A stretch of 64,000 nucleotides of DNA, from the NCBI RefSeq assembly GCF_000092425.1, contig NC_014221.1, forward strand, positions 1,369,001 through 1,433,000. Direction: 5' to 3'. This DNA comes from Truepera radiovictrix DSM 17093 (GTDB taxonomy: Bacteria; Deinococcota; Deinococci; Deinococcales; Trueperaceae). Within the stretch, counting starts at the first letter, position 1; every line of letters starts with the position of its first letter. The notes under the pieces were generated by a model. It searched no databases, was not told the origin of the DNA, and worked only from the letters and a program-made list of their open reading frames with translations. Of the stretch, positions 3,588 to 49,095 are shown in pieces. The position numbers and the translations under genes are program-made.

Positions 3588-4508
3588 CTACGCCTTGCCC
3601 ACCGACTTAAAGAGCTCGAGGCGTTTGCGCACGACCTCTTTCATCTCGTCGCGGGCGGGCCCCAGGATCTTGCGCGGGTCGAACTCACCGGGCTTTTGCC
3701 GCAGCACCTCGCGCACGCGCGTCGTAAACGCGAGGCGCAAGTCGGTGTCGGTGTTGATCTTGGCGATACCCTGCTCGATGGCTTTTTGCACGTCCTCGTC
3801 GTGGATCCCAGAAGCGTACTGCAGTTCGCCGCCCGAGGCGCGAAAGCGTTCGACGAGGGCGTTCGGCACGCCGCTCGCGCCGTGCATCACGAGCGGGTTG
3901 GGGATGCGCGCGGCGATCTCTTGGATGCGTTGGTGGTCGATAAAAGGGCGCCCCTTGCCCTTGTTGGCGCCGTGCGAGGTGCCGATGGCGACGGCCAGGT
4001 AGTCCGCGCCGGTCGCCTGCATAAAGCGTTCGGCCTCGTCGGGTTTGGTGAGGATCGCCTCCTCTTCGGAGACCACGACGTGCTCTTCGATACCGCCCAG
4101 ACGCCCGATCTCCGCCTCCACCGTGACGCCCACGGCGTGCGCGGCCTCCACCACGCGCTTCGTCTCGCGCGTGTTGGTCGCCTCGTCCTCGTGCGATTTG
4201 TCGATCATCACCGAGGAGAAGCCCCATTCGATACACTGCATGCACGACTCATATGACGAGCCGTGGTCGAGGTGCACGGCGACCGGTACCGTCGCCCGCT
4301 TGGCCTCGTGGATGACCATGTCGACGAGCTGACGTTTGCCGTACTTGATGGCCCCTTCGGAGAGCGCCAAGAGCACGGGGCTGCGGGTCTCCTCAGCTGC
4401 CTCGAGGATGGCCTGGGTGATCTCCATGTTGTTGGTGTTAAAGGCGCCGACGCCGTAGCCGCCCGCGCGGGCCGCCGCGAGGATCTCGAGTCCGGTAAGA
4501 AGTGGCAT
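3588..4508 (-). CDS. fba: Class II fructose-bisphosphate aldolase
   Basis: Cleaves fructose 1,6-bisphosphate to the two triose phosphates, or condenses them, in glycolysis and gluconeogenesis; zinc-dependent and cytoplasmic. 306 residues, normal for the family. Visible motifs: YGVGAFNTNNMEITQAI at the N-terminus, the metal-binding HLDHGSSYE (about 80), SVMIDKSHEDEATN, VAIGTSHGANKGKG, and MHGASG. The ATG at 4508 stands 6 bases after TATACT on the minus strand, the leaderless pattern, and has no Shine-Dalgarno sequence. A GC-rich inverted repeat follows the stop. Confidence 0.97.
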   Translation of the reverse strand: MPLLTGLEILAAARAGGYGVGAFNTNNMEITQAILEAAEETRSPVLLALSEGAIKYGKRQLVDMVIHEAKRATVPVAVHLDHGSSYESCMQCIEWGFSSVMIDKSHEDEATNTRETKRVVEAAHAVGVTVEAEIGRLGGIEEHVVVSEEEAILTKPDEAERFMQATGADYLAVAIGTSHGANKGKGRPFIDHQRIQEIAARIPNPLVMHGASGVPNALVERFRASGGELQYASGIHDEDVQKAIEQGIAKINTDTDLRLAFTTRVREVLRQKPGEFDPRKILGPARDEMKEVVRKRLELFKSVGKA

Positions 4509-4619
4509 GGGGGGAGTATACCAAGTCGCTGAAGGCGGCTTTCGGCAGGGGGGGCGGTGTACCGGCTGTCGCGTCTGGGTGTGCGTGGGGGGCCCGGCGC
4601 CTTGTGGTAGGCTGAACCC

Positions 4620-4904
4620 ATGGGGATGCTCGAGCTCGGCCGCACGCGGTCACAAAAACGCAAGGTCAGCGTCCTCTTGACCGCTCTTCACCTGCTGGCG
4701 CTGGGGGCCCTCGTCGCCCTCTTCTGGCTTGCCGGCGGCCCCCCAGCGACGCCCCTGGGCGGAGCGCTGCTGGTCGTCGCGACGACGCTCTGGCTGCTGA
4801 GCTTTGTCCTGCTCTGCGTCAACGTCGCCTATTACGTCTTCGCTTACGTCATCCACCCCCCTAGAGGTCGAGAAACGCCTTCAGAGCGGCGTTCACGGCC
4901 CTGA
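4620..4904 (+). CDS. Small membrane protein, two predicted TM segments
   Basis: 94 residues of unknown function. Two hydrophobic segments lie at about 17-41 and 48-76, with a basic N-terminus (RTRSQKRK) and a basic C-terminal tail. The ATG at 4620 follows TAGGCT by 6 bases, the leaderless pattern, which supports it being a real gene. Its last 44 bases overlap the 3' end of mqnB on the other strand. It is transcribed away from fba; the two leaderless promoters are back to back. Confidence 0.68.
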   Translation: MGMLELGRTRSQKRKVSVLLTALHLLALGALVALFWLAGGPPATPLGGALLVVATTLWLLSFVLLCVNVAYYVFAYVIHPPRGRETPSERRSRP

Positions 4905-39532: not shown

Positions 39533-40041
39533 CCGCTGTGGGGGGGCGCTATGGCAGACCCCCAGCCGAGACCCCCTGACGCGCGCGCCGCCGGGGCGCT
39601 GCCGCTCTATGCGCTCCACATCGCCTTCTTTCCGCCCCCGACGGCTCCCTCTCGGGTGGCCGTGTGACCGCTGCACGTCGCTTTCTGTCAGCATAGTGTA
39701 AAGGAGCAGCGTTTGAGAAGGGTGGCAGCCACCGTTTCCAGACCGCCCCGCGACACCCCCCGAGACGTCGCCCCAGTAGGGAGTCGGCGACGCCCTTTTC
39801 GGGGGGGAGCGCCGTCGCCGACAACGACCAGCTGCCTGCTGCTACGGGGGGTTGCGCACGCTCGAGAAGCGCCCCACATCCCCGGTGCAGGTGACGGCCG
39901 TGGGCGGAGCGCGCAGCCACGCCAGGCCGCCCGGGCCACGGGCACCGGTTTGGCGTCCCGGAGGTGGAGGCGCGACGTTGACGAGCAGTGCCCTGCAAAA
40001 GGTCCTAGTCAAGCTCTGCGGGATCTAGTAGATTGAACCTT
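39533..40041. other. Non-coding stretch before the XRE-cupin regulator
   Basis: About 500 bases without a convincing gene (its first part may belong to the kinase-fold gene). Contains TACACTATGCT near 39697-39707 on the minus strand, a possible promoter, and a strong inverted repeat: GTCGGCGACG (39783-39792) with CGTCGCCGAC (39813-39822), 20-base loop. No T-run is adjacent. The end of the stretch holds the promoter of the regulator. Confidence 0.45.
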
Positions 40042-40059
40042 ATGTCCAGATTATTGAAC
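40029..40059 (+). promoter_or_regulatory. Promoter of the XRE-cupin gene with ATTGAAC direct repeats
   Basis: TAGATT (40029-40034) is the probable -10 box, 7 bases before the leader ORF start. The heptamer ATTGAAC overlaps it (40032-40038) and recurs at 40053-40059, a 21-base period or two helical turns. The same heptamer forms a palindrome at 45677-45693. This is the position expected for self-repression. Confidence 0.6.
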
Positions 40060-40116
40060 ACACCCCGGCAGCGCGGCGCTCGCCTGACGCCTGAGCGGCC
40101 GTCTGCGGCGCGATGA
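40042..40116 (+). CDS. Leader ORF (24 aa) upstream of the XRE-cupin regulator
   Basis: Starts MSRLLNTPRQ and is rich in Arg and Pro. The ATG lies 7 bases after TAGATT, the leaderless pattern, and the stop overlaps the regulator's ATG as ATGA (40113-40116). Translation of the regulator is therefore likely to be coupled to this ORF. Second ATTGAAC half-site lies inside it. Confidence 0.62.
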   Translation: MSRLLNTPRQRGARLTPERPSAAR

Positions 40117-40676
40117 ACCGCCACCACCTGGGCCACCGCCTGCGCGCGCTGAGGCTGGCGCACGGCTACACCCTGCAGCAGGTCGCCGAGCGCAGCGGGC
40201 TCTCGCGGTCGTTTCTCTCGATGCTCGAGAACGGCCGCACGAACGTCTCGGCCGTGCGCCTGCAAAAGCTCGCGGGGGTGTTCGGTTTGGGCCTCAGCGA
40301 CCTGTTGCCGAATGAGGGCGGCCAGAGCGGCCTGCGGGTGCTGCGCGCGGGCGAGGGGGAGCGCCTAGCGGGGTTTCCCCCCGGCGTCGAGGCCACGCTC
40401 TACTTCCGGGACCCGCACCGGCGGGTGCAGCCGGTGCACCTGACGCTGGGGCCGGGGGCGGTGAACCACAACGAGGAGGGGCACGCGGGCGACGAGTTTC
40501 TCCTCGTGTTAGAGGGCCGCGTCGAGGTGGCGGTGGGGGAGGGGGACTTCACCGTGCTCGAAGCGGGGGACGCGGCGTTCTACTCGAGCGCCCTGCGCCA
40601 CACCTACCGCAACCCCGGTCCGGAGACGGCGCGCCTACTCACCCTGAACGCGCCCCACAGCTGGCACCGGTTGTAG
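40113..40676 (+). CDS. XRE-family regulator with C-terminal cupin domain
   Basis: 187 residues. Helix-turn-helix at about 4-62 (LGHRLRALRLAHGYTLQQVA, ERSGLSRSFLSMLENGRTNV), cupin at about 105-180 (NHNEEGHAGDEFLLVLEGRV, VLEAGDAAFYSSALRHTYRN). Proteins of this design (PuuR-like) repress catabolic operons for polyamines, amino acids or related compounds, the cupin sensing the ligand. Cupin residues His, Glu and His are present, so metal binding is possible. Its neighbours on the minus strand are the importer and M24 genes that I propose it controls. Confidence 0.9.
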   Translation: MNRHHLGHRLRALRLAHGYTLQQVAERSGLSRSFLSMLENGRTNVSAVRLQKLAGVFGLGLSDLLPNEGGQSGLRVLRAGEGERLAGFPPGVEATLYFRDPHRRVQPVHLTLGPGAVNHNEEGHAGDEFLLVLEGRVEVAVGEGDFTVLEAGDAAFYSSALRHTYRNPGPETARLLTLNAPHSWHRL

Positions 40677-40866: not shown

Positions 40867-41790
40867 CTACCCCCCCTCATCGAGCCGCGTGTCGAAGACG
40901 TCGCGCAGCCCGTCGCCGAGGAGGCTAAAGCCGAGCACCGTCAGGGTGATGGCGAGCCCCGGGTAGAGCGTGACGTGCGGCGCCGTGCGGATCGCTTCGC
41001 GCCCGATGCTGAGCATCCGGCCCCAGCTGATCTCGGGCGGCTGCGTGCCGAGCCCCAGAAACGACAAGGACGCCTCCGCGACGATGGCCGTGCCCATCCC
41101 GAGGGTGCTGAGGACCAACGCGGGCGCCCAGGCGTTCATCAGGATGTGCGTGAGCACGCGCGCGTGCGACCCGCCGAGCGCCCGCGCCGACTCGACGAAC
41201 TCCTCTTCGCGCAAAGCGAGCACGTCGCTGCGCACGAGGCGCGCCATGGTCGGGATGCGCACGACGGCGATCGCGAGCATCGCGTTGACGATGCTCGGGC
41301 CTAAAGCGGCGACGATGGCGATCGCCAAGAGGATGCCGGGGAGCGCCAAGAGCACGTCCATGACGCGCATGATGAGGTTGTCGAGCCAACCCCCCGCGTA
41401 GCCCGCCACGGCGCCCAGCAGCACCCCGAAGACGAGCGACAAACCGGTCGCCACGAACCCCACCAGCAGCGACACGCGCGCGCCGAACACCAGGCGGCTC
41501 AGGAGGTCGCGGCCCAACTCGTCGCCGCCCAAAACGTACTGCGTGTTGAGCCGCCCCGCGACCACGAGCCCGCGCGGCGCCTCGTAGCGCGCCCAGATGT
41601 CCTGTGCGTGCGGGTCCATGGGCGCTAACCACGGGGCGAAGAGGGCGACCAGCACGAGCGCGGCGATGAGCCCGCCGCCGATCACCACGTTCTTGTTGCG
41701 CAGCGCTCGACCCACCCAGCGTGGGCGCGCCGAAGCGCCCACGCTGGGGCGCGCGGCGTCCACGGGGTCGCCGGTCGCGCGGCTAGTCAT
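40867..41790 (-). CDS. ABC transporter permease, DppC/OppC type (second importer)
   Basis: 307 residues: N-terminal extension of about 30 residues, TM at about 37-58, periplasmic block YVLGGDELGRDLLSRLVFGARVSL, and EAA loop EEFVESARALGGSHARVLTHI. End block LLGDGLRDVFDTRLDEG. Overlaps the upstream permease gene by 8 bases, so translation is coupled. Last gene of the minus-strand operon M24 peptidase-receptor-permease-permease. Confidence 0.93.
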   Translation of the reverse strand: MTSRATGDPVDAARPSVGASARPRWVGRALRNKNVVIGGGLIAALVLVALFAPWLAPMDPHAQDIWARYEAPRGLVVAGRLNTQYVLGGDELGRDLLSRLVFGARVSLLVGFVATGLSLVFGVLLGAVAGYAGGWLDNLIMRVMDVLLALPGILLAIAIVAALGPSIVNAMLAIAVVRIPTMARLVRSDVLALREEEFVESARALGGSHARVLTHILMNAWAPALVLSTLGMGTAIVAEASLSFLGLGTQPPEISWGRMLSIGREAIRTAPHVTLYPGLAITLTVLGFSLLGDGLRDVFDTRLDEGG

Positions 41791-42766
41791 AGCGGATCCT
41801 CGGGTTTAAGAAGCCGTAGGAGAGGTCGACGAGGAGGTTTGCCAGGGCGAAGACGACCGCCAGCATGAGGACGCTCCCCTGCACCACGGGAAAGTCGCGC
41901 TGATTGATGGCGTCCACCGTGAGGCGCCCGAGCCCGGGCCAGGCGAAGACGACCTCGGTGACGATCGCGCCGCCCAAAAGCGCCCCGAACTGCAAGCCGA
42001 TCACCGTCACGACGGGCAAGAGCGCGTTGCGCAGCGCGTGCCCAAAGACCACGCGGCTCGGACGCGCCCCCTTCGCGCGGGCGGTGCGCACGAAGTCGCG
42101 GCGCAGCACCTCGAGGAGGCTCGAGCGCGTCAGGCGGGTGATGAGCGCCATGATCGACGCGCCGAGCGCCACGGCGGGGAGCAGGAGGTGGCGCAGCCCG
42201 TTCCACAAAGGGGTGGGGTCTCCCGCCGTGAGGAGCGCCGTGAACCCTTCTGTAAGCGCCGGGCCGCGCCCGAAGATGGGCAGCCAGCTCACGTGAAGGG
42301 CCACCGTGCTTAAGAGCACCAGCCCGACCCAGAAGTTGGGCGCCGCCACCCCGATAAGGGCGGCGATCATGCTCGTAAAGTCGAGCCAGGTGTTGCGCCT
42401 CACCGCCGCCAACACCCCCAGCGGGACGCCGACGACGACCGCCAGCGCGAGGGAGGCCACGGCCAGCTCGAGCGTCGCCGGGAGGCGCTCTAGGATGAGC
42501 CGCAGCACCGGCGCCCCCTGCCGGATGGAGACGCCCAGGTCACCCCGCAGGGCCTGCGCGAGCCACCGCCCGTACTGCTCATAGAGGGGCCGGTCGAAGC
42601 CGTACAGCTGGGTGAGGCGCGCCACCTCGTCGGGCCGCGCCTGCTCGCCCAGCATGATGCGCACCGGGTCGCCCGGCGAGAGGTGCACGAGCAAAAAGAC
42701 GATGACCGAGACGCCCCAGAGCGTCACGGCCAGGAAGAGGAGGCGTTTGAGGAGAAACTGGAGCAA
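41783..42766 (-). CDS. ABC transporter permease, DppB/OppB type (second importer)
   Basis: 327 residues with six TMs: MLQFLLKRLLFLAVTLWGVS at the start, then HLSPGDPVRIMLGEQARPDEV and EAA loop DFVRTARAKGARPSRVVFGHALRNALLP. TTG start with AAGGA about 8 bases upstream. Forms the channel with the permease at 40867. No ATPase subunit gene in the operon. Confidence 0.93.
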   Translation of the reverse strand: MLQFLLKRLLFLAVTLWGVSVIVFLLVHLSPGDPVRIMLGEQARPDEVARLTQLYGFDRPLYEQYGRWLAQALRGDLGVSIRQGAPVLRLILERLPATLELAVASLALAVVVGVPLGVLAAVRRNTWLDFTSMIAALIGVAAPNFWVGLVLLSTVALHVSWLPIFGRGPALTEGFTALLTAGDPTPLWNGLRHLLLPAVALGASIMALITRLTRSSLLEVLRRDFVRTARAKGARPSRVVFGHALRNALLPVVTVIGLQFGALLGGAIVTEVVFAWPGLGRLTVDAINQRDFPVVQGSVLMLAVVFALANLLVDLSYGFLNPRIRYD

Positions 42767-42829
42767 GGCGGGTTCCTTGTTGCTAGGTGGGTCGCGGGTG
42801 GGGGAGGGCGGTAGGCGTCCCCGGGCGTG

Positions 42830-44335
42830 TCAGCGGGCTTTTTCCACCAAGTGCAGGTCTTGGAAGGTCGCCGAGACGTACGGGTGGAGCTGCCAACCCG
42901 TGATGGTGTCGTGGTTAACGCCGATCTCCTCGGTGTTGTTGATAAAAGCGAAGGGCGCGTCGGCCATCAGCACCGCTTGGGCTTCCCGGTAGACCGCGTT
43001 GCTCTCCTCCGAACCGGGCTCGAGCCTCCGTCCCTCCTCCAAAAGCGCGTCCAGCTCGGGGTTGGTGTAAGCGATGTAGTTGTTGTCCCCGCGCGAATGG
43101 AAGAGCTCGAACATGGCGTAGTTCGGGTCGACGTTGCCGGTCCAACCGAGCAAGAAGAGGTCGAAGTCGGCCGTGTCGGTGTCCAGGATGCGGTCGATAA
43201 AGGCACCGAACTCCTCGACGAAGACCTCGAGGTTGACGCCGACTTGCGCCGCCTCGAACTGCAGCACCTCGGCGATCTGGACGCGCACGGGGTTCTCGTT
43301 CGTGTGGAGCCGTAAGGAGAGACCGTCACCGTAACCCGCCTCTTCGAGCAGCTCGCGGGCGCGCTCGGGGTCGTAGTCGTAGCGCGGCACGTCTGGGTTG
43401 TACCAGGGCACGCCGGGGGCGATGGGGCCGGTGGCGACCGAACCGATCCCCTGCAAGATGCGTTCGACGATGGCCTCGCGCGGGATAAGGTGGCCTATCG
43501 CCTGACGCACCCGCACGTCCGACAGCGCCTCGTTGCGGAAGTTGAAGCCCACGTACGCGTGCCCCAAACCGACGGCGCGCTGGACGGTGATCCCCTCGGT
43601 CGCCTCTAGACGCGTCACCTCGGCGGGGACGACTTGGCCGTGGTAGAGGTCGATCTCGCCGCCCTCGAAGGCTAGGAGCCGGGTGGCGTCTTCGGTGATG
43701 GGCCGAAACTCGACCGCGTCGACCTGTGCGCGCCCGCCCCAGTAGTCCTCGTAGGCGCTTAACACCATGCGGTCGTCACGCGCCCACGACTCGAACACGA
43801 AGGGCCCCGTGCCCACCGGGTTGCGGCCGAAGTCCCCTTCTTCCCCGAGGTCGGCCGGGACGATGTGGAGCCGCGCGATGTTGTTGAGGATAAAGGCGTT
43901 CTCACCCGACAGGTCGAAGCGGACGGTGTGCTCATCCAAGACCTCGATGTTGGTGATGTCCTCCAAAAGCCCCGGGTTGGCGCCCGGGTTGTCGGGGTTT
44001 AACACCCACTCGAAGGTGTAGCGGACGTCCTCGGCCGTAAAGGGGCGCCCGTGGTGGAAGGTGACCCCCTGGCGCAGCGCGAAGGTGACGCTGCTCCCGT
44101 CCTCGGCGAACGTCCACGACTCGGCGAGGCGCGGCTGCAAGGTGAGGTCCTCGGGGCTGTAGGTTAGCAGCGTCTCCATAATCGGGTACATGCGCTGGTA
44201 CGAGTAGGCGTCGTAGGTGGTGCGCGGGTCGAGGTCGGAGGCTTCGGCGACGGTGGCGATCACCAGGCGCGTCTGCGCGAAGGCGGTGCTAGCGAGGAGC
44301 GCGCAGCTAAGGGCGAGGGCGAAGGGGCGTTTCAT
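42830..44335 (-). CDS. Peptide-type ABC transporter substrate-binding protein (second importer)
   Basis: 501 residues, family 5 receptor with a signal peptide (MKRPFALALSCALLASTAFA, cut near AFA-Q). Blocks: VTFALRQGVTFHHGRPFTAEDV, GRNPVGTGPFVFESW, DVRVRQAIGHLIPREAIVERIL, FLLGWTGNVDPNYAMFELFHS. AGGAGG lies before the ATG. It follows the M24 gene by 30 bases, so the imported ligand is probably the substrate of the M24 enzyme, an oligopeptide or amide (inference). Confidence 0.93.
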   Translation of the reverse strand: MKRPFALALSCALLASTAFAQTRLVIATVAEASDLDPRTTYDAYSYQRMYPIMETLLTYSPEDLTLQPRLAESWTFAEDGSSVTFALRQGVTFHHGRPFTAEDVRYTFEWVLNPDNPGANPGLLEDITNIEVLDEHTVRFDLSGENAFILNNIARLHIVPADLGEEGDFGRNPVGTGPFVFESWARDDRMVLSAYEDYWGGRAQVDAVEFRPITEDATRLLAFEGGEIDLYHGQVVPAEVTRLEATEGITVQRAVGLGHAYVGFNFRNEALSDVRVRQAIGHLIPREAIVERILQGIGSVATGPIAPGVPWYNPDVPRYDYDPERARELLEEAGYGDGLSLRLHTNENPVRVQIAEVLQFEAAQVGVNLEVFVEEFGAFIDRILDTDTADFDLFLLGWTGNVDPNYAMFELFHSRGDNNYIAYTNPELDALLEEGRRLEPGSEESNAVYREAQAVLMADAPFAFINNTEEIGVNHDTITGWQLHPYVSATFQDLHLVEKAR

Positions 44336-44365
44336 AGGGACCTCCTGAGGCTGGGCATGGTGCGG

Positions 44366-45553
44366 CTAGATGAGGGTGAGTTCTCGGGGGGGCGTGCTGA
44401 GGAGTTCGGCCCCCTGGGCGGTCACGAGCACGTCTTGCTCGAGCCCAATGGGCGCCCCGCTCTGGCCCGTCACGCCGTGCACCACGGGTTCGACGGTGTA
44501 GACCTCGTTTTCGCGTAAGGGGACGTTGCCGCGCTCCCCGTAGCGGGCACCCAGGGGCGCTAGAAGCGTGCCGCCGTCGTGGACGGTGCGACCGATCTGG
44601 TGGCCGAGCGCGTGGGGGTAGGGGGTGATGCCCCCCGCCTCGAGGTGCTCGCGCGCGACCGCGTCGATTTCAAACCCGCGCTTGCCGGGGGCGATGGCGT
44701 CGATCGCGCGCATCATGGCACCCCGGCCGGTGACGAAGCGGTGCTGGACGCTTTCGGGCGGCCCGCTCTCCCCCTCGCGGCGGGCGTAGTAGGTCCGCTG
44801 GATGTCGCTGGTGTAGCCCTCGACGTAGACGCCCATGTCGACCACCACCACATCCCCCGGCGTGACCCGCGCCTCGCTCGCGGGGCGGTGGCCGATGCCC
44901 GCGTTCCCGACCATGACGTTCGCGCCGTCGCCGAACGAGTGCGTGACGCCGTAGTGGCGGTGGCGGGCCTTGACGAACGCGGCGGCCTCGAGCTCGCTCA
45001 CCCCCGGACGCAAAAACGCCCCCAACTCGTCCAAGACGCGCTCGGTCACCCGCACCGCCTCGCGGATGCGGCGCACCTCCTCGGGGGTCTTCTGGCTGCG
45101 CAGCGCGTCCAAGATCCCCTGCGCGCTCCGGATGCGGCTCTCGAAGTCGTCCCAGCCGAGCACGCGCCTGAGTTTCCGGTAGAGGCCGACGCTCAGGCCG
45201 TCGGCTAGGGGGTCGCTCTCGCTAAAGTCGAGCGCCAGCGTCTTCGGCTGGGCGCGCTCTAAAAGCGCGCCTAGCGGCGCCTCGAAACCGCCTTGCCCGT
45301 AGGGGGTGATCGCAAAAGCGCCGCTCGCGGCAATCGGCGCGACGTCGTAGTCGGCGACGACGGCGAACTTCTGGCCGCTTTTGGTCAAGAGAAAGGCCGC
45401 TTCGCCGACCATCTCGGTGTTGGCAAAAAGCAGCGTGGCGGGGTCGCTCCCCTCGCGGCAGAGCACAAGCCACGCGTCGGCCTCCAGGCTCGGCAGCAGC
45501 GCGTCTAGCTGCGCCTGCTTCTCGCGGATGAGGGTGAGGTCGCTCGGTGTCAT
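44366..45553 (-). CDS. M24-family peptidase/hydrolase (Xaa-Pro peptidase-like)
   Basis: 395 residues, creatinase/aminopeptidase P architecture: N-terminal creatinase-N domain (1-150) and C-terminal pita-bread domain. All five metal ligands are visible: Asp in VVVVDMGVY, Asp in TSDIQRTYY, His in PHALGHQIGRTVHDGG, Glu in VYTVEPVV and Glu in IGLEQDVL. Likely hydrolyses Xaa-Pro or a related amide. Transcribed from a strong divergent promoter (TTGACA, 17 bases, TACACT) just beside the ATTGAAC palindrome. An 8-codon leader ORF overlaps its ATG. Confidence 0.9.
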   Translation of the reverse strand: MTPSDLTLIREKQAQLDALLPSLEADAWLVLCREGSDPATLLFANTEMVGEAAFLLTKSGQKFAVVADYDVAPIAASGAFAITPYGQGGFEAPLGALLERAQPKTLALDFSESDPLADGLSVGLYRKLRRVLGWDDFESRIRSAQGILDALRSQKTPEEVRRIREAVRVTERVLDELGAFLRPGVSELEAAAFVKARHRHYGVTHSFGDGANVMVGNAGIGHRPASEARVTPGDVVVVDMGVYVEGYTSDIQRTYYARREGESGPPESVQHRFVTGRGAMMRAIDAIAPGKRGFEIDAVAREHLEAGGITPYPHALGHQIGRTVHDGGTLLAPLGARYGERGNVPLRENEVYTVEPVVHGVTGQSGAPIGLEQDVLVTAQGAELLSTPPRELTLI

Positions 45554-45644: not shown

Positions 45645-45673
45645 AGTGTAGTCCCGGCAGCAGAGGGTGTCAA
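45645..45673 (-). promoter_or_regulatory. Sigma-70 promoter of the M24/importer operon
   Basis: On the minus strand TTGACA (45673-45668), 17-base spacer, TACACT (45650-45645). Expected start near 45638, leader about 85 nt. The palindrome at 45677-45693 ends 3 bases upstream of the -35 box, so a bound regulator would block or contact RNA polymerase. Confidence 0.8.
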
Positions 45674-45676
45674 GAT

Positions 45677-45693
45677 ATTGAACTTCGTTCAAT
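45677..45693. promoter_or_regulatory. Perfect palindromic operator ATTGAAC-TTC-GTTCAAT
   Basis: A 17-base inverted repeat with 7-base arms between the divergent M24 and flavin reductase genes. The arm equals the half-site repeated in the XRE-cupin promoter (40032-40038 and 40053-40059). On the plus side its right arm occupies the expected -35 region (TTCAAT, 17 bases, TATGCA at 45711-45716). Confidence 0.7.
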
Positions 45694-45752
45694 GAAGTGA
45701 AATAGTGGGGTATGCACCCCCACACCCCCTTGCGACCTCGAGGCGCTGCGTC

Positions 45753-46367
45753 ATGAGTGCGCCCCTAGGCCCCGACGCGCCCTCCCCCCTCGTCTGCACC
45801 GCCCCGCCGACGCGCTTTTTCGGCTACTACCCCGGCACGGTCGCCGTCGTCACGGCGGCCGCCGACGGTGACCGTAACGTCATGAGCGCGGGCTGGCACG
45901 CGGCGCTGTCCGCCGAACCGCCCCTCTACGGGGTGGCGGTGGCGCCGGAGCGCTACACCTACGGGTTGCTGAGAGCGAGCGGCGCGTTTGCCGTGCACTT
46001 CCTCCCCTTCGGGCGCGCCGACGCGGTCGCCGGCGCGGGGAGCTTGAGCCGCCACGAGGGGGTCGACAAGTTCGCGGCGCTCGGCCTCGCGTGGCGCCCC
46101 GGCACAAAGACCCCCGCACCCATCTTGCAAGACGCCTACCTCGCCTACGAGTGCCGCCTCCAGAACGCGCTCCCGACGGGCGACCACACCTGGTTCGTCG
46201 GCGAGGTTGTGGCGCTGCACTACCGTCCGGAGGCGTTCGGCGAACGCCTGATGCAGGCGAGCGAGCGGGTCGCGCCCGCGGTCTACTACGGCCGGGCGAC
46301 CTACGAGGCGTTGGGGGCGGGCGAACGGGCCGTCTTCCCACCGGACGCGTTTAGGGAGCGGGCGTGA
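45753..46367 (+). CDS. Flavin reductase-like (FMN-binding split barrel) protein
   Basis: 204 residues. Core GYYPGTVAVVTAAADGDRNV, MSAGWHAALSAEPPLYGVAV, YTYGLLRASGAFAVHFLPFG and NALPTGDHTWFVGEVVAL follow the flavin reductase-like pattern of DIM6/NTAB proteins, which bind FMN and reduce flavin or act with it. The ATG at 45753 starts at MSAPLGPD; AGGCG precedes it. First gene of the plus-strand half of the cluster; its stop overlaps the next start (GTGA). Confidence 0.85.
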   Translation: MSAPLGPDAPSPLVCTAPPTRFFGYYPGTVAVVTAAADGDRNVMSAGWHAALSAEPPLYGVAVAPERYTYGLLRASGAFAVHFLPFGRADAVAGAGSLSRHEGVDKFAALGLAWRPGTKTPAPILQDAYLAYECRLQNALPTGDHTWFVGEVVALHYRPEAFGERLMQASERVAPAVYYGRATYEALGAGERAVFPPDAFRERA

Positions 46368-47626
46368 AGCTCCTGCCTTTGGCACGGCAAGCGGAGGTCA
46401 CCAACGGCTGGCTCCGCGAGCGGCTGCGGGCGGTGCTCCCCGAGGTGATGCGGCGCGCGCGCGTCGACCTCTGGCTGGTGGTCGCCCGCGAGTACAACGA
46501 GGACCCCGTCTTGCCGAGCCTCCTACCCGCCCCCATGATGGGCGCGCGGCGCCGCACGATGCTCGTCTTTCACGCGCCCGAGGGGGGCGCTTTCGAGGCG
46601 CTGGCGATCGCCAACGCGGGCGTCGGACTTGACGGCTTTTACACGCCGATGTGGGACAAGACGATGCTCGCCGAGGCCGCCGAGGACCAGTGGGCGTGTT
46701 TGCGGCGGGTGGTGGCCGAGCGGAACCCCAAACGCATCGGGGTCAACGTCAGCGCCGAGATCGCCTTCGCCGACGGGCTCTCCAAAAGCGAACACGACGC
46801 GCTCATGGCGGCGCTCGGGCCGGAGCTGGCCGCGCGCTGCGTGAGCGCCGAGGAGGTGGTCGTCGGGTGGTTGAGCCGCCGCCTAGAGGGTGAGATCGAA
46901 GCCGCGGACGGTATCAACGCCCTGGCGCACGGCCTCATCGCGGAGGCGTTTTCACCCCGCGTCGTGCACCCGGGGGTGACGACCGCTGTGGAGGTCGCCT
47001 GGTGGCTGCGCGAGCGCGCGCGGTCTCTGGGCCTGGGCTGCTGGTTTCAACCCTCGGTGTCCATCCAGCGGCGCGGCGAACACCTGGGCGACCTCGGCAG
47101 CAGCCCGGACGCGGTCATCCGCCGCGGCGACCTGTTGCACTGCGACTTCGGGTTGCACTACCTGGGGCTCGCGACCGACACCCAACAGAACGCCTACGTG
47201 CGGCGGCTCGGTGAGAGCGGCCCCCCGGCCGGGATGGTGGCGGCGCTCGCCAAGGCTAAATGGCAGCAGGAGCTCTTGGCGGCCGAGATGGTCATCGGGC
47301 GCAGCGGCAACGAGGTGCTGCGCGCGGCGCGCGCGGCGATGGCGCGCGCCGGCCTCGAGGGCCGCATCTACACCCACCCCATCGGCTATCACGGGCACGG
47401 GGCGGGGCCGATGATCGGCCGCTACGACAACCAGGAGGGGTTGCCCGGCGCGGGCGAGCTGCGCCTGCAAGACGCCACCCTCTTCTCGTTCGAGATGTTC
47501 GTCGAGCACGCGTTGCCGGAGTGGGACGGGCAGCGCATCAAACTGGCCACGGAGCAGTGCGTGGCGTTTCGCGGCGGGGAGGTCCACTTCCTGGGGGGGC
47601 GGCAGACCGCGTGGCACCTCATCTAG
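46364..47626 (+). CDS. Second M24-family hydrolase
   Basis: 420 residues, divergent from the M24 protein at 44366. N-terminal MKLLPLARQAEVTNGWLRER and VDLWLVVAREYNEDPVLPSL, then the pita-bread domain with all five ligands: Asp in LLHCDFGLHY, Asp in LATDTQQNAY, His in YHGHGAGPMIG, Glu in LFSFEMFVEH and Glu in LATEQCVAF. Function unknown; M24 members include prolidases, creatinase and ectoine hydrolase. Starts with a GTGA overlap on the flavin reductase gene and overlaps the next gene by 16 bases, so the three are one coupled unit. Confidence 0.87.
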   Translation: MKLLPLARQAEVTNGWLRERLRAVLPEVMRRARVDLWLVVAREYNEDPVLPSLLPAPMMGARRRTMLVFHAPEGGAFEALAIANAGVGLDGFYTPMWDKTMLAEAAEDQWACLRRVVAERNPKRIGVNVSAEIAFADGLSKSEHDALMAALGPELAARCVSAEEVVVGWLSRRLEGEIEAADGINALAHGLIAEAFSPRVVHPGVTTAVEVAWWLRERARSLGLGCWFQPSVSIQRRGEHLGDLGSSPDAVIRRGDLLHCDFGLHYLGLATDTQQNAYVRRLGESGPPAGMVAALAKAKWQQELLAAEMVIGRSGNEVLRAARAAMARAGLEGRIYTHPIGYHGHGAGPMIGRYDNQEGLPGAGELRLQDATLFSFEMFVEHALPEWDGQRIKLATEQCVAFRGGEVHFLGGRQTAWHLI

Positions 47627-49095
47627 ACGCCCCCGGGGCCCCGGCACCGGTCGAGCGCTGCGAGCTGGCGCCGGGACTTTCCGTCTCCCGCGTCCTCACC
47701 GGGCTCTGGCAAGTGGCCGACATGGAGCGCGGCGGCAAGCTCGAGCCGCGCGCCGCCGCGCGCGCCATGGTGCCCTACGTGGAGGCCGGGCTGACGAGCT
47801 TCGACATGGCCGACCACTACGGCTCGGCGGAGGAGATCGCCGGGACCTTCGGCCCCCGCAGCCCCTCGGGCACCCCCGTGCAGCGGCTCACCAAATGGGT
47901 GCCCGAACCCGGCCCCCTGACCAAAAGGGACGTGCGCGCGGCGGTGGAGCGCGCCCTGCGGCGCCTCCGGACGGAGCGCCTGGACCTGTTGCAGTTTCAC
48001 ACCTGGAGCTACGCCGACCCGAGCTACCTAGACGCCCTCTTCTGGCTCCAGGAGCTGCAGGCGGAGGGGCTCGTGGCGCACCTCGGGCTGACGAACGTCG
48101 ACGCGGCGCACCTGCGGCTGGTGCTCTCGAGCGGCCTTGAGGTGGTCTCCAACCAGGTGTCGTTTTCGCTCCTCGACCAGCGGGCGGCGGGGGAGATGAC
48201 GGCGCTCTGCCTCGAGCGGGGCGTCAAGCTGCTCGCCTACGGCACCCTCGCGGGGGGCTTTCTGTCGGAGCGCTGGCTGGGGCAGCCGGAGCCTGCCTGG
48301 GAGCGCCTGACGACCTGGTCGCAGCGCAAGTACCGCCGCTTTATCGAGGCGGCGGGCGGCTGGGGGGCGTTCCAGGGTGTTTTGCGGGCGGCGGCGCACG
48401 TGGCGCGGCGCCACGGCGTGTCGGTCGCCAACGTCGCCGTGCGGAGCGTTCTCGAGCAACCCGCCGTCGGCGGCGTGATCGTCGGCGCGCGCCTCGGCCA
48501 GAGCGAGCACCTTGACGACACGCTGCGCGTCTTTTCGTTTCGCCTCGACGAGACCGACCGCGCGGCGCTCCGCGGCGCCCTCTCGGCCCTCGCGCCAATC
48601 CCCGGCGACTGCGGCGACGAGTACCGCCGCCCGCCCTTTTTGACCGCCGCGGGCGACCTCAGCCACCACGTCGCCACCTTTCCGCCCCCCTACCCGAGCT
48701 GCACCCGCGCGGACGGTCGGCGCGTGGCGCTGAGCGGCACCCCCTGGGAGGCGCTGGCCGGGTACGCCCGCGCGGTGCGCGTCGGGGACCGCATCCTCGT
48801 GTCGGGGACCACGGCGACCCACGGGGGGCGGCTAATTGGCGGGGCGGACGCCGCCGCGCAGTTTCACTTCGCGGTGGACAAGCTCGAGGGCGCCCTGAGG
48901 TCGCTCGGGGGCCGCCTGGAGGACGTCGTGCGCACGCGCGTCTATGTCCGCGACCTAGCGGACTGGGAGGCGGTGGCGCGGGCGCACGGGGCCAGATTCA
49001 GGGAGATCAGCCCCGCCAACACGCTCGTGCAGGCGGGGCTGGTGGGGGAGGGGTACTTGGTGGAGCTCGAGGCGGAGGCGGTGGTGGGGGGCTGA
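47611..49095 (+). CDS. Aldo/keto reductase fused to a RidA-family domain
   Basis: 494 residues. Residues about 15-340 are an aldo/keto reductase with the full tetrad: Asp and Tyr in SFDMADHYGSAEE, Lys in RLTKWVPE, His in LLQFHTWSY, and an NADPH-binding end (VGGVIVGARLGQSEHL). From about 365 on is a RidA/YjgF trimer-type domain (YARAVRVGDRILVSGTTATH, VVRTRVYVRDLADWEAVARAH, VELEAEAVVGG). The Arg that activates water in RidA enzymes (in the PARS block) is Asn here (SPANTLVQAG), so it may bind rather than hydrolyse imines. The GTG at 47611 overlaps the M24 gene end. Confidence 0.88.
   Translation: MAPHLDAPGAPAPVERCELAPGLSVSRVLTGLWQVADMERGGKLEPRAAARAMVPYVEAGLTSFDMADHYGSAEEIAGTFGPRSPSGTPVQRLTKWVPEPGPLTKRDVRAAVERALRRLRTERLDLLQFHTWSYADPSYLDALFWLQELQAEGLVAHLGLTNVDAAHLRLVLSSGLEVVSNQVSFSLLDQRAAGEMTALCLERGVKLLAYGTLAGGFLSERWLGQPEPAWERLTTWSQRKYRRFIEAAGGWGAFQGVLRAAAHVARRHGVSVANVAVRSVLEQPAVGGVIVGARLGQSEHLDDTLRVFSFRLDETDRAALRGALSALAPIPGDCGDEYRRPPFLTAAGDLSHHVATFPPPYPSCTRADGRRVALSGTPWEALAGYARAVRVGDRILVSGTTATHGGRLIGGADAAAQFHFAVDKLEGALRSLGGRLEDVVRTRVYVRDLADWEAVARAHGARFREISPANTLVQAGLVGEGYLVELEAEAVVGG

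Follow-up and report, generated by a model that had tools for sequence, protein, structure and literature searches.

We propose that a 17-bp palindrome in Truepera radiovictrix is the operator of an XRE-cupin transcriptional regulator encoded in the same stretch of DNA, and that this regulator represses the promoter of an M24 peptidase and peptide-importer operon over its -35 box, acting locally and also on its own gene. This reading comes from sequence comparison, and we give it a probability of about 0.8. The palindrome, the genes around it and the related half-sites discussed below (Table 1) lie in a 64,000-nucleotide stretch, here called the window. Because relatives with the regulator have the same sequence in the same position and most of those without it lack the sequence, we regard the system as a solid but ordinary local switch; it is a metabolic switch of known type, and its operator layout is modestly unusual.

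Table 1. Features of the predicted switch, numbered from the first nucleotide of the window.
Feature	Position	Strand	Basis
Half-site ATTGAAC, first direct-repeat copy, upstream of the regulator gene	40032..40038	+	sequence
Half-site ATTGAAC, second direct-repeat copy, upstream of the regulator gene	40053..40059	+	sequence
XRE-cupin transcriptional regulator, 187 aa, HTH_3 + Cupin_2	40113..40676	+	domain search
DppC-type permease	40867..41790	-	
DppB-type permease	41783..42766	-	
SBP_bac_5 peptide-type substrate-binding protein	42830..44335	-	
M24 family peptidase (Xaa-Pro peptidase-like), first gene of the importer operon	44366..45553	-	
Sigma-70-like promoter TTGACA-17-TACACT of the M24/importer operon	45645..45673	-	promoter scan; arrangement kept in relatives
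Everted element TGTCAA-GATA-TTGAAC (minus strand GTTCAA-TATC-TTGACA)	45668..45683	.	most conserved part of the predicted operator
17-bp palindrome ATTGAAC-TTC-GTTCAAT (IR3), predicted operator	45677..45693	.	sequence and conservation in relatives
Flavin-reductase-domain protein, first gene of the divergent operon	45753..46367	+	
Second M24 family peptidase	46364..47626	+	
Aldo-keto reductase fused to a RidA-like domain (start codon approximate)	47704..49095	+	

Direct reading of ATTGAACTTCGTTCAAT confirmed a perfect 17-bp palindrome with the arms and spacer first described. Such a repeat could be a functionless chance product of an A+T-rich promoter region, and perfect 7-3-7 inverted repeats are indeed common in the window, which has a G+C content of 69% and where we counted 14 against about 10 expected (6-14 in shuffled sequences, mean 9.75). 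The palindrome per se is thus not beyond chance; the pairing of its half-site is. ATTGAACTTCGTTCAAT is the only A+T-rich member of the 14, and the heptamer ATTGAAC occurs four times in the window (shuffle mean 1.49; at least four in 4 of 100 shuffles), in the two arms and in the direct repeat before the regulator gene and, as the original prediction had it, nowhere else. Across the whole genome of 3,260,398 bp, the original prediction's own refuting test, whether such pairs are frequent elsewhere, turned out in favour of the prediction: ATTGAAC pairs, with gaps of 0-30 bp and in any orientation, were found at two sites only, the palindrome and the direct repeat, 5.6 kb apart. A control search gave zero matches, and extrapolation from the shuffle rate of the window gives a chance expectation of roughly 0.05 pairs for some 76 half-sites, with a probability of about 0.001 for two or more. 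The genome holds no second copy of the palindrome at 0-2 mismatches, and matches at three mismatches equal the control in number. The close pairs are unique genome-wide, and the palindrome is conserved at one and the same promoter in different families and on plasmids, which already contradicts a chance origin and leaves that explanation scarcely credible.

The palindrome was predicted to lie 3 bases from the promoter of the M24/importer operon, and it does: ATC separates it, on the minus strand, from TTGACA (45673-45668), which leads through a 17-nt spacer to TACACT (45650-45645). This is the sole sigma-70-like promoter that our scan detected in the intergenic region. Two other placements fared less well, since the scan returned no sigma-70-like promoter where the palindrome had been thought to cover the -35 region of the opposite, plus-strand operon, and none where the direct repeat had been thought to cover the -10 box of the regulator gene. 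A G+C-rich hairpin (arms GTGGGG and CCCCAC around TATGCAC, window 45705-45723) lies between the palindrome and the start of the flavin-reductase gene and was scored as terminator-like on the minus strand by the scan.

The regulator has the domain order of the XRE-cupin class, an N-terminal XRE helix-turn-helix (HTH_3, residues 10-64, E 1.7e-15) and a C-terminal cupin (Cupin_2, residues 109-177, E 7.3e-15), both above the curated cut-offs. Its predicted sites also resemble those of the class: a conserved palindromic candidate operator of 17 bp at a promoter, where about 15-25 bp is typical, and predicted sites, judged from sequence, at the regulator and operon promoters less than 6 kb apart, in keeping with the small local regulons of the class and its binding sites beside the regulator's gene. 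Before the regulator gene, ATTGAAC does occur twice, 21 bp apart, as originally noted, and the TTGAAC of the second copy has a weak left partner, GTCCAG, 4 bp upstream. In three relatives that belong to another genus (G028, G007 and G019) and whose regulator gene is set apart, the regulator start is preceded at about 50 bp by repeats like GTTCAA-N4-TTGAAC, clear in G028 and G019 and weak in G007; there the half-sites form an everted repeat, in contrast to the direct repeat of the window. Two points count against the operator model: in geometry the direct repeat matches neither the palindrome nor the everted repeat seen in the relatives, and the scan detected no clear promoter at the regulator gene. 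Across the everted repeat, each of the three relatives has an uncharacterised gene of about 310 codons divergent from the regulator (L040 904-1836, L042 378-1310, L041 ~3892-4821), which may be a further target.

Among 111 Deinococcota genomes searched, close relatives of the regulator (~46-56% identity, E <1e-37) are present in six other genomes, G028, G007, G019, G041, G025 and G037; relatives are labelled uncultured Trueperaceae, and G041 is of the same order. A regulator-profile search of the genome contigs returned only three loci (L051, L052 and L053), with L051 and L052 on contigs already sampled. The layout in G007, G019 and G028 is that of the window, with M24, binding-protein, DppB and DppC genes facing a flavin reductase and a second M24 gene (in G028 the locus is split over two contigs), and in all three a palindrome with 0-1 mismatches precedes the TTGAC of the M24 promoter by 3 bp. 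The M24 genes of G025 and G041 are more distant, and there the regulator gene closes the operon; a single perfect palindrome stands at the M24 promoter of G025, and G041 has two, one for each of its two divergent M24 genes. In G037 the M24 gene forms an operon with a diverged regulator, and the site there is no better than a weak one with three mismatches. The perfect palindrome occurs in 3 of the 111 genomes, each with a close relative of the regulator and each time at an M24 promoter, and the control gave none; a search across the phylum at two mismatches was at background in many A+T-richer genomes and uninformative. As a side observation, a TANNNT-like box lies about 6 bp ahead of the start of the divergent flavin-reductase genes in relatives (L041 ~11350, L042 ~7780), which suggests that their transcripts are leaderless.

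The same arrangement is found on plasmids of three Deinococcus strains (L136-L138). Here a regulator with 44-47% identity is encoded at the end of an M24-binding protein-permease-permease operon, following dppC as it does in G041 and G025, and the operon faces additional M24 genes; on each plasmid the divergent M24 promoter has the palindrome, with 0-1 mismatches, 3 bp from TTGAC. This spacing is seen at eight promoters of Trueperaceae and G041 and at three plasmid promoters. Its presence on plasmids means that the M24/importer/XRE-cupin module may move within the phylum.

Orthologues of the first M24 gene (~55-59% identity) that occur without a close relative of the regulator, at 11 loci in 10 genomes, provide a natural control. 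The palindrome is present at none of these 11 loci and at four of the four M24 orthologues that have the regulator, and in G016, G023 and G031 the promoter is kept as TTGACA-17-TACGCT with no palindrome beside it. Fisher's exact test gives P = 0.0007, or 0.003 if G035 is counted against the association, values that are uncorrected for kinship and serve as a guide only because species are not independent. G035 has the site and no detected regulator; its assembly is 79% complete and the contig ends inside dppC. A candidate regulator on its contig C60 proved to be an unrelated small helix-turn-helix protein.

The case of G035 would fit a model in which some other transcription factor uses the sites, with the XRE-cupin gene as a further target or a bystander, and binding by the XRE-cupin protein is itself a prediction. 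We consider such a factor quite improbable: the site is found together with the regulator both in genomes and on plasmids, the half-site matches the target locus of PuuR in Escherichia coli, and there is one site locus per genome, which suits a local regulator. Uniqueness of the pair, recurrence at M24 promoters that come with the regulator and absence from the 11 loci that lack it together support the original proposal that palindrome and direct repeat are a shared, predicted operator of the XRE-cupin protein.

By comparing promoters we found that the most conserved part of the predicted operator is the everted element made up of the promoter-proximal half-site and the -35 box. At 14 of 14 promoters the proximal half, the 3-bp spacing and TTGAC are invariant, a degree of conservation inflated because the promoters were picked out by the proximal-half/TTGAC anchor, and three importer promoters of Deinococcus have no recognisable distal half. 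An unanchored check with the 15-base signature GTTCARTATSTTGAC, searched as the pattern GTTCA(A/G)TAT(C/G)TTGAC, gave seven matches in the 111 genomes, one in each of seven genomes and all at this promoter; the reversed control gave none in the same genomes. Among these predicted operators, the invariant element is GTTCAA-N4-TTGAC and not the 17-bp palindrome as such, and the -35 box may itself act as a half-site. A tentative extension, which we think somewhat less probable than its converse, is that the operator is an array of three half-sites, ATTGAAC-N3-GTTCAAT-N2-cTTGACa, in which the -35 box would be the third, the palindrome would be an optional addition to the GTTCAA-N4-TTGAC core, and half-sites in inverted, everted and direct geometry would all be acceptable to the regulator. 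With the -35 box as third half-site, a PuuR-like regulator would therefore read a promoter element directly. If the -35 box serves as a half-site at all, the protein would be placed on it, and the position of the palindrome centre, near -47 and out of phase for classical activation, would no longer be a difficulty.

The fixed 3-bp spacing could also suit an activator. Bound immediately upstream of the -35 box, the regulator might stimulate the M24/importer promoter in the manner of lambda CI at PRM, and a constant distance in 14 of 14 promoters is what contact with sigma or the alpha-CTD would lead one to expect. Yet the palindrome centre lies about half a helical turn from -41.5, the usual activator position, the conserved everted element overlaps the -35 box itself, the promoters already have good -35 boxes, and in G025 the divergent gene has its start codon a mere 15 bp or so beyond the site. 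NceR of Neisseria gonorrhoeae, an XRE-family protein that binds at and upstream of the -35 box, is a reported activator (PMC10470515); the XRE-cupin regulators of Pseudomonas aeruginosa with defined regulons all inhibit neighbouring genes (PMC7901475). Activation is in our judgement unlikely, more plausible all the same than control by a separate factor.

For repression, we envisage that TTGAAC half-sites are read by one dimer of the regulator, or perhaps by two dimers spread over three half-sites; at the M24/importer promoter the last half-site would be the -35 box itself, so that the bound protein would cover it and block RNA polymerase. It would probably also block the divergent flavin-reductase operon, and the weaker half-sites before the regulator gene would probably mediate autoregulation. 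A peptide-like ligand in the cupin domain would release the regulator; from the gene content, we guess at a peptide or an Xaa-Pro compound. The importer operon consists of a binding protein and two permeases (window 40867-45553; L041-L044; L136-L138). No ATPase was seen in the window operon (40867-45553) or beside the operon on the annotated plasmid loci (L136-L138), and the importer may borrow its ATPases from another importer.

For Trueperaceae and Deinococcus, in which few metabolic regulators have known sites, a promoter palindrome that carried no annotation now leads to a specific prediction naming the regulator, its operator and the operon it targets, with a 15-base signature that can be used to annotate the switch in further genomes. 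One candidate precedent, Rv0023, was rejected, as its match to GTTCAA came through primers and probes only and its real site is TATA-N3-TTTT. In other work, 223 XRE motifs have been predicted (PMC12565409).

A close parallel, judged from published descriptions, is PsdR of P. aeruginosa, which represses dppA3, for a dipeptide-binding protein, and mdpA, for a metallodipeptidase, through the palindrome TTAAG-N5-CTTAA (PMC7901475, PMC10965056). The two systems share XRE-cupin domain order and have as targets, real or predicted, neighbouring genes that encode a peptide-binding protein and a metallopeptidase, and the 15-bp PsdR site is alike in arm and spacer geometry; the half-site is different, our site reading TTGAA-N5-TTCAA in place of the PsdR operator sequence, and here the genes encode M24 peptidases and a DppBC importer whose function is predicted. 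DbuR of Pseudomonas putida is likewise an XRE-cupin repressor, with a 20-bp palindrome at the promoter of an adjacent operon (PMC12724383). It controls neighbouring genes of amino-acid catabolism, among them those for a Rid protein and a transporter; its palindrome is unrelated in sequence and it is concerned with D-branched-chain amino acids. PuuR of E. coli is an XRE-cupin protein similar to ours over its full length at 25% identity, and the puuA-puuD region that it targets (L134) contains ATATTGAACA and ATAATGAACA, read by us from the E. coli sequence itself, which are close to the ATTGAAC half-site. PuuR controls putrescine use, in contrast to the role predicted here, and our regulator scores 58.9 bits, far below the cut-off of 211 for the PuuR family (NCBIfam NF007408 equivalog). 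The predicted switch extends to Deinococcota the XRE-cupin pattern of local control over peptide or amine use, with a half-site that resembles the one at the PuuR locus.
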